Source of the DNA: Roseburia hominis A2-183
Lineage (GTDB): Bacteria > Bacillota > Clostridia > Lachnospirales > Lachnospiraceae
Length of the DNA stretch: 64,000 bases
Reading direction: 5' to 3'
NCBI RefSeq assembly: GCF_000225345.1
Contig: NC_015977.1
Span: 1,781,501-1,845,500 of the forward strand
The translations under genes were made by a program, and so were the position numbers. Of this stretch, positions 3,107 through 52,535 are shown one piece after another; position 1 is the stretch's first letter; every line of letters begins with the position of its first letter. Below the pieces are notes generated by a model. That model saw only the letters and a list, made by a program, of their open reading frames with translations. It made no database searches and was not told the origin of the DNA.

Positions 3107-4045
3107 TTAGCCCTCCTCATCAGAATAGAATACCCAGTATTTCTGGCTCAGGAATGCAATCGTGGTAAAGATCATCAGGATGACGAACATTACCCATGCC
3201 ATCGCACTTGCCATACCCATGTCATACTGTTTGAACGCACTGTTGTAAATCAAAAGTGAAATCAGTGTTGTAGAGTTTCTCGGTCCGCCCTGTGTGATGA
3301 TGTACGGTCCGTTGAACTCCTGGAATGCCTGACAGAGCTGTGTTACCAGGTTGTAGAAAATAACCGGTGTAATGATCGGCACTGTCACAGAGAAGAACTG
3401 ACGCCACTTGCCTGCTCCGTCGATCGAAGCCGCCTCGTAGAGATCCTGTGGAACACCCTTTAACGCTGCAAGGAAAATAATCATTGCAGAACCGAACTGC
3501 CATACACGAAGCAGACAGATTACGAACAGGGAATACTTTGTATCGGACAGCCAGCTCGGGCCTGTAATACCCAAAAGACCGAGGAATCCGTTTAAAAGTC
3601 CGTCATCGCGGAATACTGCTTTCCAGAGTACCGCAATGGCAACCGATCCCCCTAAGATAGAAGGTACATAGTAAGCGGTACGGAAGAAATTCACGCCCTT
3701 GATCTTGAAGTTCAGTATGTAAGCGATAAACAATGCAAATATCAGTTTTAACGGAACTGTGATAAATGCATACTTGAATGTAACCGTCAACGCTGTCGTA
3801 ATCTTCTTGGTTGTGAAGACATTCACATAGTTCTGAAGTGTTCCGATCACATTCATGCCCTTAAACAGATTGTAGTCTGTAAAGCTGTAGAATAATGAGG
3901 AACCCATCGGCCACAGTTTGAATACAAGGAAACCAAACAACCATGGCAAAATAAAGAAGAAGCCGATATTTTCTTTGCAAATGTCAACAAACGTTTTTTT
4001 CTTCTTTGGCACTGCAACATTTGCGGTATTACTTTTCTTAGCCAA
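3107..4045 (-). CDS. Carbohydrate ABC transporter permease (MalF type)
   Basis: Second membrane subunit of the same importer, 312 residues. A Lys-rich cytoplasmic head (KKKKTFVD) precedes the first membrane span IGFFFILPWLFGFLVF. The EAA loop DLYEAASIDGAGKWRQF is clear. The start codon appears to be TTG at 4045, preceded by a consensus AGGAGGT about nine bases upstream; no better ATG is present. It pairs with the MalG-type permease downstream and the binding lipoprotein upstream, with the GH105-fold gene between, to form one transport system without its own ATPase. Confidence 0.93.
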   Translation of the reverse strand: MAKKSNTANVAVPKKKKTFVDICKENIGFFFILPWLFGFLVFKLWPMGSSLFYSFTDYNLFKGMNVIGTLQNYVNVFTTKKITTALTVTFKYAFITVPLKLIFALFIAYILNFKIKGVNFFRTAYYVPSILGGSVAIAVLWKAVFRDDGLLNGFLGLLGITGPSWLSDTKYSLFVICLLRVWQFGSAMIIFLAALKGVPQDLYEAASIDGAGKWRQFFSVTVPIITPVIFYNLVTQLCQAFQEFNGPYIITQGGPRNSTTLISLLIYNSAFKQYDMGMASAMAWVMFVILMIFTTIAFLSQKYWVFYSDEEG

Positions 4046-10746: not shown

Positions 10747-11757
10747 ATGACAATTTACGACATTTCGAAGAAAGCCGGTGTTTCCATTGCCACCGTCTCC
10801 CGTGTTCTAAACGGAAGCGATAAAGTCCGGCCAGCTACCCGAAAAAAGGTAATGGATATTATAGAAAAATACGACTATACTCCGAATGCATTTGCGCGCG
10901 GCATGGGACTTCATTCCGTACAGACGATCGGTATTCTCTGTGCCGATTCCTCGGATCTTTTTCTCGCCAAGGCAGTGTATTATCTCGAGCAGGAGCTTCA
11001 GTCCAACGGCTATGAATCCCTTTTATGCTGTACCGGTTACAATCTGGACATCAAGAAGAATTACTTAAACCTCATTCTTTCCAAGAAAGTGGATGGCATT
11101 ATTCTCGTTGGTTCCAACTTCATCGGTACCAATGAGGAGGAGAACCAGTACATCAAGGACGTTTCCGCACAGGTTCCCATTATGCTGCTCAACGCTTCCT
11201 TTGACTATCCGAATGTGTACAGCACACTCTGCGACGATTACACATCTATGTTCGAGGCAACCGTTTCCATGCTTGACGCGGGGATTGAGGACATTCTCTA
11301 TCTGTACAATTCCAATTCCTACAGCGGCGTCAAAAAGCTGGGCGGTTTTCGCGCCGCCATGGAGGCACACTCTGTCCCGGATTACGAGAAACGGATTCTC
11401 TTCTACGAGGGAGACCCGCAGCAGATGGACGACGTCGCCAATTATCTGGAACGTCTTTCCAAAAAGAAGCTGAGTTTTCACGGCGTGATCGCATCGGAGG
11501 ATCCGCTTGCCATAGGCGCCATGAAATACGCCAGACGTCAGGGACTTTGCGTACCGGAAGATTTGTCGGTAATTGGATATAATAATTCCATGCTCACCAC
11601 CTGCTGTACACCGGAGCTTACCTCCGTTGACAACCGTCTTGAGACACAGACGCATCAGCTGGTGCAGACTCTGCTCGGAGTTCTCCAGGGTGAGGAAATG
11701 CCGAAGAAATCCATTTTTTCCGGCAAACTTATCAAACGAGGCACTACATTATTTTAA
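10747..11757 (+). CDS. LacI-family transcriptional regulator of the uronate locus
   Basis: Repressor of 336 residues. The N-terminus MTIYDISKKAGVSIATVSRV followed by LNGSDKVRPATRKKV is the classic LacI helix-turn-helix and hinge; the rest is a periplasmic-binding-protein-like sensor domain (TIGILCADSSDLFLAKAV, IIASEDPLAIG-like segments). It is divergent from uxaB and heads an operon with uxaC, kduI and a DhuI-like gene, so it most likely controls the whole locus. The effector would be a uronate or one of its intermediates, which cannot be read from sequence. Operators with TGTAA half-sites are present at both minus-strand promoters. Confidence 0.9.
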   Translation: MTIYDISKKAGVSIATVSRVLNGSDKVRPATRKKVMDIIEKYDYTPNAFARGMGLHSVQTIGILCADSSDLFLAKAVYYLEQELQSNGYESLLCCTGYNLDIKKNYLNLILSKKVDGIILVGSNFIGTNEEENQYIKDVSAQVPIMLLNASFDYPNVYSTLCDDYTSMFEATVSMLDAGIEDILYLYNSNSYSGVKKLGGFRAAMEAHSVPDYEKRILFYEGDPQQMDDVANYLERLSKKKLSFHGVIASEDPLAIGAMKYARRQGLCVPEDLSVIGYNNSMLTTCCTPELTSVDNRLETQTHQLVQTLLGVLQGEEMPKKSIFSGKLIKRGTTLF

Positions 11758-11799
11758 GGTTTTCAAATATACCAAGAACAACTTATGGAGGAAAAAAAG

Positions 11800-13215
11800 A
11801 TGAAAACATTTATGGACAAAGACTTTTTACTGCAGACAGAGACAGCCCAAAAGCTGTACAACGATTATGCGGCAGCCACACCGATTCTGGATTACCACTG
11901 CCACATCAACCCGCAGGAGATTTATGAGGACCGTCAGTTCGAAAATATCACACAGGTATGGCTCGGCGGCGACCATTATAAATGGCGCTTCATGCGTTCC
12001 TGCGGCGTGGACGAGCGCTTCATTACAGGCGACGCTTCCGACAAGGAGAAATTCTTAAAGTGGGCTGAGGTACTCGGCAAAGCTATCGGCAATCCACTCT
12101 TCCACTGGAGCCATTTGGAGCTGCAGAAATATTTCGGCTATCACGGCGTGCTCAACAAAAACACCGCTGAGGAAGTATGGGAGCTCTGCAACAAGCGTCT
12201 CGCTGAGCCGGATATGACTGTCCGCAACATCATCAAGCAGTCCAACGTCACACTGATCTGCACCACCGATGATCCGATCGATTCTCTGGAGTGGCACAAG
12301 AAGATCGCCGAGGATGCTTCTTTCGACGTAAAGGTTCTTCCTGCATGGCGCCCGGACAAGGCAATGAACATTGAAAAACCGACCTATCCGGAGTACCTGG
12401 ATCAGTTATCCGCTGTATCCGGCATCAAGGTTGCCACCTTCGCGGATCTGTGCAAGGCACTTTCCAACCGCATGGATTTCTTCGCTTCCATGGGATGCTG
12501 TGTCTCCGACCACGCGTTAGAGTATGTAATGTACGCTCCTGCTTCCGCAGAAGAGATCGAGAGCATCTTCGCAAAACGTCTTGCAGGAAATGATGTCACC
12601 AAGGAAGAAGAATTAAAGTTCAAGACGGCATTCATGGTCAATGTCGGCAAAGAGTATGCAAAGCGCAACTGGGTAATGCAGCTGCACTACGGCTGCAAGC
12701 GCGACAACAACACACCGATGTTCAACAAGCTCGGACCGGATACTGGATATGACTGTATCAACAACTACGCTCCTTCTTCTGAGATGGCAGATTTCTTAAA
12801 TGCCTTAAATCAGAGTGACGAACTTCCGAAAACGATCATCTACAGCTTGAACCCGAACGACAACCAGGCCATCGGCACGATCCTCGGCTGCTTCCAGGAT
12901 TCCACCGCAGTTGCAAAGATTCAGCAGGGTTCCGCATGGTGGTTCAACGATCACAAGACAGGCATGCAGGATCAGATGATCTCTCTCGCCAACCTTGGAA
13001 ACCTTTCCGGATTCGTGGGAATGCTGACAGACTCCAGAAGCTTCTTATCCTATACCCGTCACGATTACTTCCGCAGAATTCTCTGCAATCTGATCGGCAA
13101 CTGGGTAGAGAACGGCGAGTTCCCGGCAGACTACGAGACACTTGAGGAGATCGTGAAGGGAATCTGCTACAACAATGCCGTCAACTACTTCGGATTTGAC
13201 TTAAAGACCTGCTAA
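11800..13215 (+). CDS. uxaC: Glucuronate/galacturonate isomerase
   Basis: Isomerises D-glucuronate to fructuronate and D-galacturonate to tagaturonate, the first step of hexuronate catabolism. The product of about 471 residues is a metal-dependent TIM barrel of the amidohydrolase superfamily, with the early YHCHINP metal motif (about residue 34), LHYGCKRDNN and the C-terminal MLTDSRSFLSYTRHDYFRR. An ATG at 11785 is in frame, but the bases just after it form GGAGG, which serves the ATG at 11800 (MKTFMDKDF). It follows the regulator by about 40 bp and is clearly in its operon. Confidence 0.96.
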   Translation: MKTFMDKDFLLQTETAQKLYNDYAAATPILDYHCHINPQEIYEDRQFENITQVWLGGDHYKWRFMRSCGVDERFITGDASDKEKFLKWAEVLGKAIGNPLFHWSHLELQKYFGYHGVLNKNTAEEVWELCNKRLAEPDMTVRNIIKQSNVTLICTTDDPIDSLEWHKKIAEDASFDVKVLPAWRPDKAMNIEKPTYPEYLDQLSAVSGIKVATFADLCKALSNRMDFFASMGCCVSDHALEYVMYAPASAEEIESIFAKRLAGNDVTKEEELKFKTAFMVNVGKEYAKRNWVMQLHYGCKRDNNTPMFNKLGPDTGYDCINNYAPSSEMADFLNALNQSDELPKTIIYSLNPNDNQAIGTILGCFQDSTAVAKIQQGSAWWFNDHKTGMQDQMISLANLGNLSGFVGMLTDSRSFLSYTRHDYFRRILCNLIGNWVENGEFPADYETLEEIVKGICYNNAVNYFGFDLKTC

Positions 13216-13228
13216 TTGGTTTCCCATT

Positions 13229-13254
13229 GAAATGCCCGGTTTTCCGGGCATTTC
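13229..13254 (+). other. Intercistronic hairpin between uxaC and kduI
   Basis: GAAATGCCCGG pairs perfectly with CCGGGCATTTC around TTTT. No T-tract follows, so it is more likely an mRNA processing or stabilising hairpin than a terminator. kduI begins 31 bp later with its own ribosome site. Confidence 0.6.
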
Positions 13255-13285
13255 ATGCAACAATACATAGAAAGGATATTTTATC

Positions 13286-14149
13286 ATGGAACTTAGAACA
13301 GCTGCATCTCCAAGAGATGTCAAACACTACACCACCGAACGTTTAAGAGAGGAATTTCTGATTGACGACCTGTTTTTGCCGGATGTCATCAAACTGGTAT
13401 ACAGCCATATCGACCGTATCATTACCGGTTCTGCCGTTCCGGTAAAAGAGACCTTAAAGCTGACCGCCGGCGACGAACTCCGCGCACAGTATTTCTGTGA
13501 GCGCCGTGAGCTTGGCGTCATCAATATCGGCGGCGCAGGCACCATCACCATCGATGGAAAGGCTTACCACGTTGCACACAAGGAAGGCATGTATATCGGC
13601 ATGGGCTCCCGCGACATTACTTTTGCAAGCGATGACGCCGCTGCACCGGCAAAATTCTATTTAAACAGTGCTCCTGCACACCGCACATGTCCAACCGTTC
13701 TCATCAAGCCGGAAGGCACACCGGAAGATGGTGTTGTCATCGTCAAGGACTGCAACAAAGTAGAACTCGGTTCCCTGGAGACAGCAAACCACAGAACGAT
13801 CTGCAAATATATCCTTCCTGGTCAGGTAGAGAGCTGCCAGCTGGAAATGGGCATGACAAAACTTGAGCCGGGAAGCGTATGGAACACAATGCCTTGCCAT
13901 ACACACGACAGACGCATGGAGGTCTATCTGTATTTCGATATGCCAGAAGATGCCCTTGTCATGCACTACATGGGTGAGCCGACAGAGACACGCCACATTG
14001 TAATGCGCAACGAGCAGGCAGTCATCTCCCCGAGCTGGTCGATCCACTCCGGATGCGGCACCCAGGCTTACACCTTTATCTGGGGCATGGTCGGTGAGAA
14101 TCAGGATTTTGACGACATGGACGACGTAGCCATGACAGATTTGTTATAA
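13286..14149 (+). CDS. kduI: 5-dehydro-4-deoxy-D-glucuronate isomerase (KduI)
   Basis: Isomerises 5-keto-4-deoxyuronate, formed spontaneously from unsaturated uronates, to 3-deoxy-D-glycero-2,5-hexodiulosonate. At 287 residues it has normal length and two cupin-like halves. The zinc site is complete: MPCHTHDRRMEVYLYF gives His205, His207 and Glu212, and SWSIHSG supplies His254. The product is the substrate of KduD, encoded across the divergent promoter. Immediately downstream lies an RpiB-fold protein that resembles the unrelated isomerase DhuI, which performs the same reaction. Confidence 0.95.
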   Translation: MELRTAASPRDVKHYTTERLREEFLIDDLFLPDVIKLVYSHIDRIITGSAVPVKETLKLTAGDELRAQYFCERRELGVINIGGAGTITIDGKAYHVAHKEGMYIGMGSRDITFASDDAAAPAKFYLNSAPAHRTCPTVLIKPEGTPEDGVVIVKDCNKVELGSLETANHRTICKYILPGQVESCQLEMGMTKLEPGSVWNTMPCHTHDRRMEVYLYFDMPEDALVMHYMGEPTETRHIVMRNEQAVISPSWSIHSGCGTQAYTFIWGMVGENQDFDDMDDVAMTDLL

Positions 14150-14807: not shown

Positions 14808-14818
14808 GCCGTTCCAAC

Positions 14819-15347
14819 TAAGTAATTGCCGCAATAAGCATGGATCTCTTTGGAGTGATAAGTAATATTATATGAAACACACTTGGAGATTTCATGTGGA
14901 AATGGAGATGGAAATTCGGTTCAAAAAATGTGGAATTTCTAACCAACCGAATGTTTGCATCTTCGATGATCCGTGTCTTTCCAAGTTTGGAGCACTCCAC
15001 GGACTGTGTCCGCAAGCCAGCAGACAATTTTAGGACTTTTGTGTGTGTCCCTTGCGGCACCAGACAACAGATGGCATAAATGCCATCTGTTGTCGAATAA
15101 AACATAACCGCGCGAAGCCGATGTTTGAGTCGGCATCTGCCCTATTTTCAATAGCAGATGCCGGCGAGTTTCGGTTCGCGCGGTTTTATATTGTCTATGA
15201 AGAGGTGCCATTAGGGACACCAGAAAGTCCGCTCATTGTCTGCGGCTTGTCGGACACACTCCGTGAGTGTCCAAACGTGGAAGAGACACGGAATTTGATG
15301 CAAACATTCAGTTGGAAGAAATGCTCACATTTTTCTCCAACGAATAT
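14819..15347 (+). repeat. Foldback element copy 1 (right end missing)
   Basis: A gene-free segment homologous to the inverse complement of 51901-52490, with scattered differences only. It opens with TAAGTAATTGCCGCAATAAG, carries an arm with GTTTGCATCTTCGATGATCC, a central hairpin (AACCGCGCGAA at 15106-15116 pairing with TTCGCGCGGTT at 15175-15185, then GGCATCTGC with GCAGATGCC), and a second arm that is an imperfect inverse of the first (GGAAGAGACACGG, GATGCAAACATTC). Homology to the other copy stops at about 15347, so the last roughly 90 bp, including the right terminal inverted repeat, are missing. A perfect 15-bp-stem hairpin at 15063-15094 is absent from the other copy. No transposase and no plausible gene are inside. 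Confidence 0.85.
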
Positions 15348-15398
15348 AAAGTTTGCATAAATATTTTTTCCGTCTTCCCTCTCCTCTGCCGTGTGCTC

Positions 15399-51900: not shown

Positions 51901-52490
51901 AAGGAACTGCCGCAATAAGCATATCGTGCTTTGATAAGTAATATTATTAGAAACACACTTGGGGATTTCATGTGGAAATGCAGATGGAATATTCGTTGGA
52001 GAAAAATGTGAGCATTTCTTCCGGCTGAATGTTTGCATCGGATTCCGTGTCTCTTCCACGTTTGGACAATCCGACGGGTGCATGTCCGGCACACCGGAGA
52101 CAATGGGCGGACTTTCTGGTGTCCCTAAGGGCACCTCTTCGCAGACAATATAAAACCGCGCGAACCGAAACTCGCCGGCATCTGCTATTGAAAATAAGGC
52201 AGATGCCGACTCAGACATCGGCTTCGCGCGGTTATGTTTTGCTTAGAGGTGCCATAAGGGACACACACAAAAGTCCTACAAATTGTCTTCCGGGATGCGG
52301 ACATGACCCGCGGAGTGCTCCAAACTTGGAAAGACACGGATCATCGAAGATGCAAACATCCGGTTGGTTAGAAATGCCACATTTTTTGAACCGAATTTCC
52401 ACCTGCATTTCCATCTGAAATCCCACGGTGTGGTCTTCTGATAATATTACTTATCACCCAAAGCGGTCTATGCTTGTTGCGGCAATTCCT
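51901..52490 (-). repeat. Foldback element copy 2 (complete)
   Basis: About 590 bp that is one large imperfect palindrome. The ends are inverted repeats of the form AAGGAAYTGCCGCAAYAAGC, extended by TGATAAGTAATATTA. The arms of about 260 bp carry matching blocks (GTTTGCATC, CCGTGTCT, TTTGGA, AGACAAT, GGTGTCCCT/AGGGACACC), and the centre is a tight hairpin (AACCGCGCGAA at 52154-52164 with TTCGCGCGGTT at 52223-52233, then GGCATCTGC with GCAGATGCC). It is oriented opposite to copy 1. It sits between dacA and scpB, with no direct target duplication I can see. Reading frames within it are by-products of the repeat. It could be a non-autonomous (MITE-like) element or a long structured RNA. Confidence 0.88.
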
Positions 52491-52535
52491 TATTATCCGT
52501 CTCTCACAGATTTGCACCAGGATTTCTTTTATGTT

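Follow-up and report, generated by a model that had tools for sequence, protein, structure and literature searches.

What kind of sequence pairs with itself along almost 600 bp, carries no gene and recurs in inverted orientation on the same piece of chromosome? The question is posed by positions 51901-52490 of the window, a stretch of 64,000 nucleotides from Roseburia hominis A2-183 that occupies 1781501-1845500 of a genome made up of a single contig of 3,592,125 bp. An earlier note on this DNA described a foldback element in two inverted copies, either MITE-like or a long hairpin RNA family. Our preferred reading, which we hold tentatively and with a little less than even confidence, is that the element is an old, non-autonomous, giant palindromic repeat of the MITE/REP kind in transcription-end regions, that its arms and core are homogenised by copying, and that it would both be mobile and double as a two-way transcription end. 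The observations beneath this reading are the copy number of the element, its end-to-end pairing, compensatory change on both strands, its location, one site that is filled in one genome and empty in a related one, and cores that resemble each other more closely than ends do.

The element and its two copies in the window

Copy 1 (51901-52491, plus strand, 591 bp; G000:C1:1833401-1833991) folds as a single full-length hairpin: over 51901-52492 the predicted energy is -346 kcal/mol, where 100 dinucleotide shuffles average -167 (sd 6.8), and the resulting z of -26.5 bears out the self-complementarity from end to end claimed for 51901-52490. Terminal inverted repeats are present as described, the left one (AAGGAACTGCCGCAATAAGC, plus strand, 51901-51920) matching the end pattern with 2 mismatches and the right one (AAGGAATTGCCGCAACAAGC, minus strand, 52472-52491) matching it exactly. 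Inside them the subterminal motif TGATAAGTAATATTAT occurs as an exact match in both arms, at 51932-51947 on the plus strand and at 52441-52456 on the minus strand. The conserved core lies at 52118-52264 (plus strand) and scores 167.6 bits with our covariance model R1, of which copy 1 is itself a member.

The inverted homologue reported at 14819-15347 is also real. We place copy 2 at about 14815-15355 on the minus strand, with 84% identity to copy 1 over the aligned part and a fold z of -21.5. It is without some 88 bases of one outer arm and keeps one terminal inverted repeat (14820-14839, plus strand, 2 mismatches to the pattern); its core, at 15080-15221 on the minus strand, scores 121.6 bits with R1. 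Within it is an extra small hairpin (15063-15094) with perfect 15-bp arms. A surplus length of about 30 bp is also seen in 12 other copies of the 53 that were folded, in both subfamilies; this is a likeness of length, and it would fit the passing of that small-hairpin insert between subfamilies. Two more copies lie just outside the window, at G000:C1:1779894-1780492 (about 1 kb before it) and 1853552-1853699 (about 8 kb after it).

Copy 1 stands between a ScpB gene (PF04079; 52536-53132, minus strand), whose 3' end faces it, and a D-alanyl-D-alanine carboxypeptidase gene (dac; PF00768; 50619-51830, minus strand, start codon unsettled), whose 5' end is near it. Copy 2 is faced by the 3' ends of two convergent genes, one for a LacAB/RpiB-type isomerase (PF02502; 14169-14807, plus strand) and one that is YtfJ-like (PF09579; 15606-16055, minus strand). 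These four adjoining genes match families other than transposases, in agreement with the view that no transposase is nearby. Coding capacity is absent from the element, and no protein-like reading frame is shared: among 53 aligned copies just 4 keep the 129-codon reading frame of copy 1 open and in register, and 36 differ in length in a way that disrupts the frame.

No named family was thought to fit, and this holds for Rfam, against the window and five loci, and for the literature searched, in which we found no description of such a structure or family. The whole window has no Rfam family at gathering score. At E <=1 the five loci gave three matches (two microRNA models and one snoRNA model), all below gathering score; the best of them, to a microRNA model on L062 with E 1.8e-5, reached 42.8 bits where the gathering score is 140 and was taken as a generic hairpin match, and a known RNA family was rejected as an identity for the element.

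A dispersed family with a patchy distribution

DNA and pattern searches of the host genome gave some 60 candidate places. The core model R1 (147 positions, 37 sequences, 40 pairs) gave 143 matches over both strands, counted as 79 distinct places; the figure comes from scoring 150 out of 982 first-look candidates, so the true total may differ. Both copies of the earlier note are therefore members of a family far larger than two, and the search with a covariance model that it had proposed for the host and other Lachnospiraceae found copies in six further genomes as well. The 79 host positions do not depart from a uniform distribution (KS p 0.68). Folding was done for 53 of 60 loci, those skipped having a best match that covered fewer than 380 query bases; these near full-length copies have a projected span of 580-629 bp and each keeps 204-244 Watson-Crick pairs on either strand. 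Partial forms are present in the host genome too, as internal-deletion minis and solo arms, and the 20-bp end is matched there 34 times with up to 3 mismatches, against 0 for the reversed control.

The six other carriers, here called by our genome (G) and locus (L) numbers, are Lachnospiraceae of at least three genera. By DNA search, 5 of 116 genomes (the host and its relatives) had matches, all in the same genus, and a copy from G053 used as DNA query matched 3 of 62 genomes of the genus. Across 397 genomes of the taxonomic family the core model matched 3, namely the host and two of other genera (G279 and G406), a lower bound given stricter filters and 7 candidates scored per genome. Deeper searches with the same model, at 150 candidates each, returned 20 matches in G279, 8 in G053 (one being the reverse strand of another), 6 in G046, 5 in G406, 1 in G058 and none in G047. 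Three of 13 further genomes matched: G506 with 10 matches, G503 with a single one (this appears to be G058 under another number) and G504 with a weak one that scores 32.7 bits. The taxonomic spread is patchy. An origin in phages or plasmids was rejected, one exact core pattern having no match in viral contigs and blastn none against plasmids and phages. Four contigs of G279 (C88, C44, C3 and C25) end in or close to an element core, so that copy numbers in drafts may be underestimated. Some G506 copies (at L351 and L354) seem shorter, with called stop codons just 126-234 bases from the core centre.

Pairing is conserved without a consistent strand preference

For the 39 copies of class A there are 158 consensus pairs, 41 of which occur as two Watson-Crick types that differ on both sides. 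Comparisons between close class A copies (>=94% identity, 7 comparisons) gave 46 single changes and 1 double change, and the most distant bin (364 comparisons) gave 5736 double changes, 4505 of them from one Watson-Crick pair to another, and 5068 single ones. Across species, compensated double changes are found at 31 of the 40 core pairs. These compensated changes mean that structure has been kept while sequence changed. The counts of compensation and of strand preference cover 39 class A and 13 class B copies among the 53 folded, L121 having been set aside as an outlier.

Compensation of this kind, together with loop nucleotides that are invariant across species in the core alignment, speaks for a structured RNA family in which one strand is transcribed as a rod-like RNA of about 600 nt with conserved internal loops and a function in trans or in 3'-UTRs. 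The plus strand is moreover slightly the more stable in 43 of 53 host copies, a point that also counts against our preferred reading. A single functional RNA strand should show G-U more often than A-C along that strand, but this is not consistently seen: on pairs common to the folds of both strands, G-U stands at 59 against 46 A-C in class A, at 38 against 36 in class B and at 15 against 43 in the cross-species core. A much larger excess of G-U over A-C (class A 242 to 71, class B 115 to 40) had suggested a strand-specific RNA and was rejected as an artefact of predicting structure on the plus strand, since on the shared pairs it shrinks to the class A and class B counts just given. Mean G-U counts are near equal between strands in the host and the four other genomes folded, and the plus strand is the more stable in just 1 of 16 copies of G279 (5 of 6 in G046, 3 of 7 in G053, 3 of 5 in G406). 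Host copies between tandem genes occur in both orientations (10 and 16), and no Rfam match rises above threshold. The absence of a consistent G-U preference makes it less likely that selection acts solely on a single strand as transcript. We consider a structured RNA family improbable, and the hairpin RNA half of the earlier proposal retains weak support, with strong compensatory change on its side. A link to replication direction was also set aside: the 22 copies lying one way to the fork have 44 G-U and 46 A-C, and the 30 lying the other way have 64 and 52, if the origin is taken to lie near coordinate 1 and the terminus half-way round.

Compensation without a consistent strand preference fits either pairing that is kept on both strands or copying from arm to arm. 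On visual inspection, the two ends of a copy match even when they differ from those of other copies. Over the 15 bases outside the terminal repeats, inverted likeness is 6.46 within a copy and 5.17 (sd 0.33) between copies, a difference reached in 0 of 2000 permutations with 26 copies. Adjacent compensated doubles number 21 in class A, a clear clustering given that 2000 permutations average 7.0 and reach 16 at most; class B, which is small, shows no such signal (1 vs 0.6). The element is inverted relative to the genes at 2 of the 3 sites that the host and G053 have in common. Arm likeness, clustered doubles and inverted sites all fit copying between arms; the clustered changes could also come from exchange between copies, and selection on structure is another option. 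There is precedent for arm copying in accounts of template switching, which is described as homogenising the arms of inverted repeats and inverting the spacer (PMC8604942) and as maintaining hairpins through multibase compensatory mutations (PMC8794818).

Host copies lie mostly between converging genes

Both neighbours could be called for 77 host copies (2 of the 79 loci are without a called neighbour on one side), and of these copies 50 are convergent, 26 tandem and 1 divergent. Adjacent gene pairs from the window and three other stretches served as background: 5 of 73 are convergent, 5 divergent and 63 tandem, and one of the five convergent pairs holds window copy 2 and another a solo arm. 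The convergent excess is highly significant (50/77 vs 5/73, Fisher p 2e-14) and the depletion of divergent pairs is not (1/77 vs 5/73, p 0.11). In G279 (n=16) there are 12 convergent, 4 tandem and 0 divergent copies, and the convergent bias is strong in these two genomes. G053 has 3 convergent and 3 tandem copies, G506 has 3 and 4, and G058 has 1 divergent. The small sets of copies in G046 (1 convergent, 4 tandem, 1 divergent) and G406 (0, 4 and 1) show no such bias, which counts against our preferred reading. Genes for these location counts, as for the shared-site and reading-frame tests and the scpB-dac gaps described below, were called with our own codon-score scripts and not with a gene finder; eight loci without a core (L081, L088, L091, L115, L116, L128, L235 and L267) fall outside the location counts.

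The element fills almost all of the gap between convergent genes. Distances from stop to stop are 551-691 bases in 45 of 49 convergent copies of the host and G279, a set limited to copies whose centre is no more than 360 bases from either gene end, in which the older host set is represented by chosen copies. Such a location is not new in itself, given that REPs are described as lying predominantly between unidirectional and convergent ORFs (PMC3733652).

A run of T follows the stem on both strands (A outside the end at 52-82% over positions -5 to -1, 56 motif-placed ends). A simple and crude scan picked up an intrinsic terminator distinct from the element, close to the stop codon, at 10 of 117 element-side gene ends, against 6 of 25 controls (Fisher p 0.04) and 2 of 117 shuffles. 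Since the T-run follows the stem on both strands and most abutting genes are without another terminator that the scan can detect, the simplest functional reading of the sequence is that the element probably acts as a two-way transcription end. Against this stand the other three convergent pairs of the window, which manage with ordinary terminators in two cases and a gap of 10 bp in one, and which count against our preferred reading.

Movement, inheritance and exchange of cores

Comparison of flanks for empty sites, which the earlier note had proposed, proved informative at scpB. We examined 45 of 80 scpB loci and found dac in 34; among these 34 linked relatives the element is present only in G053, where the gap is 649 bp, and the other 33 gaps have no element and measure 48-298 bp save one of 1043 bp. 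At L272, which is 86% identical to G053 over 5.8 kb, the scpB-dac gap is 108 bp and the element is absent. A site that is filled in G053 and empty in L272 is evidence of insertion, loss in L272 being the other option. The G053 insertion sits in the T-run after the scpB terminator hairpin. At a second G053 site (L229) the genome to which L272 belongs, G504, has an ordinary terminator hairpin, whose CTGTCGC/GCGGCAG stem resembles the ends of the G053 copy. Taken together, the two comparisons indicate that gain or loss occurs. G504 also holds one decayed core and several dispersed solo-arm hairpins (L363-L366), each like a single G053 arm without the core; these are perhaps the remains of full elements.

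Some sites are shared across species. Copies adjoin the same gene 3' ends as host copies at 3 of 8 G053 loci (L108/L230, L257/L229 and L106/L231) and at 2 of 20 loci of G279, which is of another genus (L255/L211 and L132/L203); two other pairs, L109/L219 at 47% identity and L127/L225 at 52%, may be paralogues and were not counted. Despite the shared sites, copies cluster by genome, with L266 apart, in an analysis that left out L113, L242, L260 and stretches below 370 bases. This combination could mean either repeated insertion into a limited number of sites or old sites that have been homogenised within each genome. The second possibility in its strict form, that of old, vertically inherited sites with gene conversion inside each genome, disappearance from most relatives and recent movement slight or absent, would explain the shared sites, the cores that are more alike than ends, and the decayed core and solo arms of G504, a relative of G053. 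It would need many losses, because 33 of the 34 scpB-dac sites are empty, including L276, whose genome holds 10 copies elsewhere, and the carriers are scattered. We regard strictly vertical inheritance as rather unlikely.

The first possibility has its own strict form, a classical MITE of an insertion sequence, with a transposase working in trans on the terminal repeats and no particular role for the long arms. Terminal inverted repeats, dispersed copies, minis with internal deletions, solo arms, a site both filled and empty, and patchy taxonomic spread are all as expected of such an element, and as a description the term MITE-like stands for something dispersed over 79 places, non-coding and inverted at its ends. 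Membership of the class is another matter. For the 26 copies in which motifs fix the position of either end there is no signal of target-site duplication (mean 1.73 vs 1.95 permuted), and erosion of old copies may hide it. No transposase element with the same ends was found in the host genome, which was searched for the ends with up to 3 mismatches: the matches fall in foldback copies, minis and solo arms, with one stray at 3229743 (3 mismatches), whose 12-kb stretch contains no second end even when 5 mismatches are allowed. Retention of the long paired arms in every one of the 53 folded copies also sits badly with arms that are incidental, as do the unrelated ends found on copies with near-identical cores. 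We judge a classical MITE unlikely. REPs are mobilised by RAYT transposases. The foldback family differs here too, in that Y1 (HUH) transposases (PF01797) do not track it: carriers have them in 3 cases of 7 and genomes without a full match in 8 of 11, in a survey in which Y1 was the sole transposase family searched, G279 is 76% complete, and G020 and G504, both among the 11, appear to be one genome.

Cores and ends have different histories. In 60 nearest pairs mean identity is 92% for the inner 380 bases, 84% for the arms and 73% for the ends, and random sequences put through the same aligner give 71% at arm length and 69% at end length (40 bases). Even copies whose cores reach 99.2% identity have ends about as different as random sequences, a pattern that points to swapping of cores among resident copies as one component of the history. 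It also excludes a simple recent transposition of the whole 590-bp unit as the sole account.

These observations lead back to our preferred reading, an old palindromic repeat kept by copying, which may be put together as follows. The element would first have entered the genome as a non-autonomous mobile element that depended on some enzyme for its movement. Copying from arm to arm, by template switching or gene conversion, would keep the arms complementary and let the element persist, while exchange between copies would homogenise the core. Placed in the 3' ends of genes, above all convergent ones, it would come to serve as a two-way transcription end. Several results weigh against this reading: no target-site duplication among the 26 copies, no autonomous element with matching ends found in the host genome, Y1 transposases that do not follow the family, and unrelated ends on copies with near-identical cores. 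A more radical possibility, which we think doubtful, is that the fold rather than the sequence is what is inherited: a giant hairpin would be seeded at transcription ends, with its arms rewritten from each other and its core from sister copies, and would stay paired on both strands while its sequence drifts, with no transposase of the usual kind, the cell using it as a common separator of converging genes.

Relationship to known repeats

The structure and the family are real, and they resemble REPs and MITEs yet lack some of the defining features; the manner in which the family is maintained may be new. ERIC is one of the prokaryotic MITEs. Others (Chunjie, BOX, RUP and SPRITE, the last of them terminator-like) are, as set out in PMC10969869, non-coding, dispersed and intergenic with inverted ends, as is the foldback family. 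Given the size of 50-500 bp stated there for MITEs (PMC10969869), the family differs in being about 600 bp long, in conserving its pairing over the whole length and in having ends that vary from copy to copy. It differs from MITEs also in that neither a target-site duplication nor a parent element was found here.

REP/BIME elements and the GTAG/CGTC-tagged REPs provide a second comparison, being palindromic, extragenic, of high copy number and located between unidirectional or convergent ORFs in the description of PMC3733652. The size given for REPs in that source is 20-40 bp (PMC3733652), against a single hairpin of about 600 bp in the present case, and the G-T pairing that it takes as support for an RNA role has no consistent counterpart here. 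Quasipalindromes that evolve by template switching resemble the family in the homogenisation of arms and inversion of spacers (PMC8604942) and in multibase compensatory mutations (PMC8794818); the cases presented in these sources are short repeats in yeast genes and RNA genes, whereas here arms of about 260 bp belong to a dispersed bacterial family. With bidirectional intrinsic terminators the element shares the order of A-run, stem and T-run between convergent genes. Ordinary terminators of the window have short stems, unlike the stem of about 260 bp found here in a homologous family with a conserved core.

Palindromes of some 600 bp are expected to be unstable in bacteria. About eighty of them are nevertheless kept by one gut bacterium, in which the foldback element may be a common separator of converging genes. 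The family offers a natural test of whether template switching or selection keeps long stems paired, because the symmetry of G-U and A-C, the clustered compensations and the inversions of the spacer can be read from many copies together. It could also mislead searches for non-coding RNA that rely on covariation, because strong covariation is present here without a sign of selection on one RNA strand.

At L358, two solo arms (3919-4024 and 11021-11093; G000:C1:2288918 and 2296020) flank a 7-kb cluster. A 7-kb transposon between these arms was considered and rejected on the genes inside, which are AraC, MFS, LacZ and AraC. The second AraC gene ends inside a solo arm and appears to take its stop codon from it. 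At 11618-13522 of the same locus a gene for a 634-residue protein with a match to the NACHT domain adjoins a solo arm.
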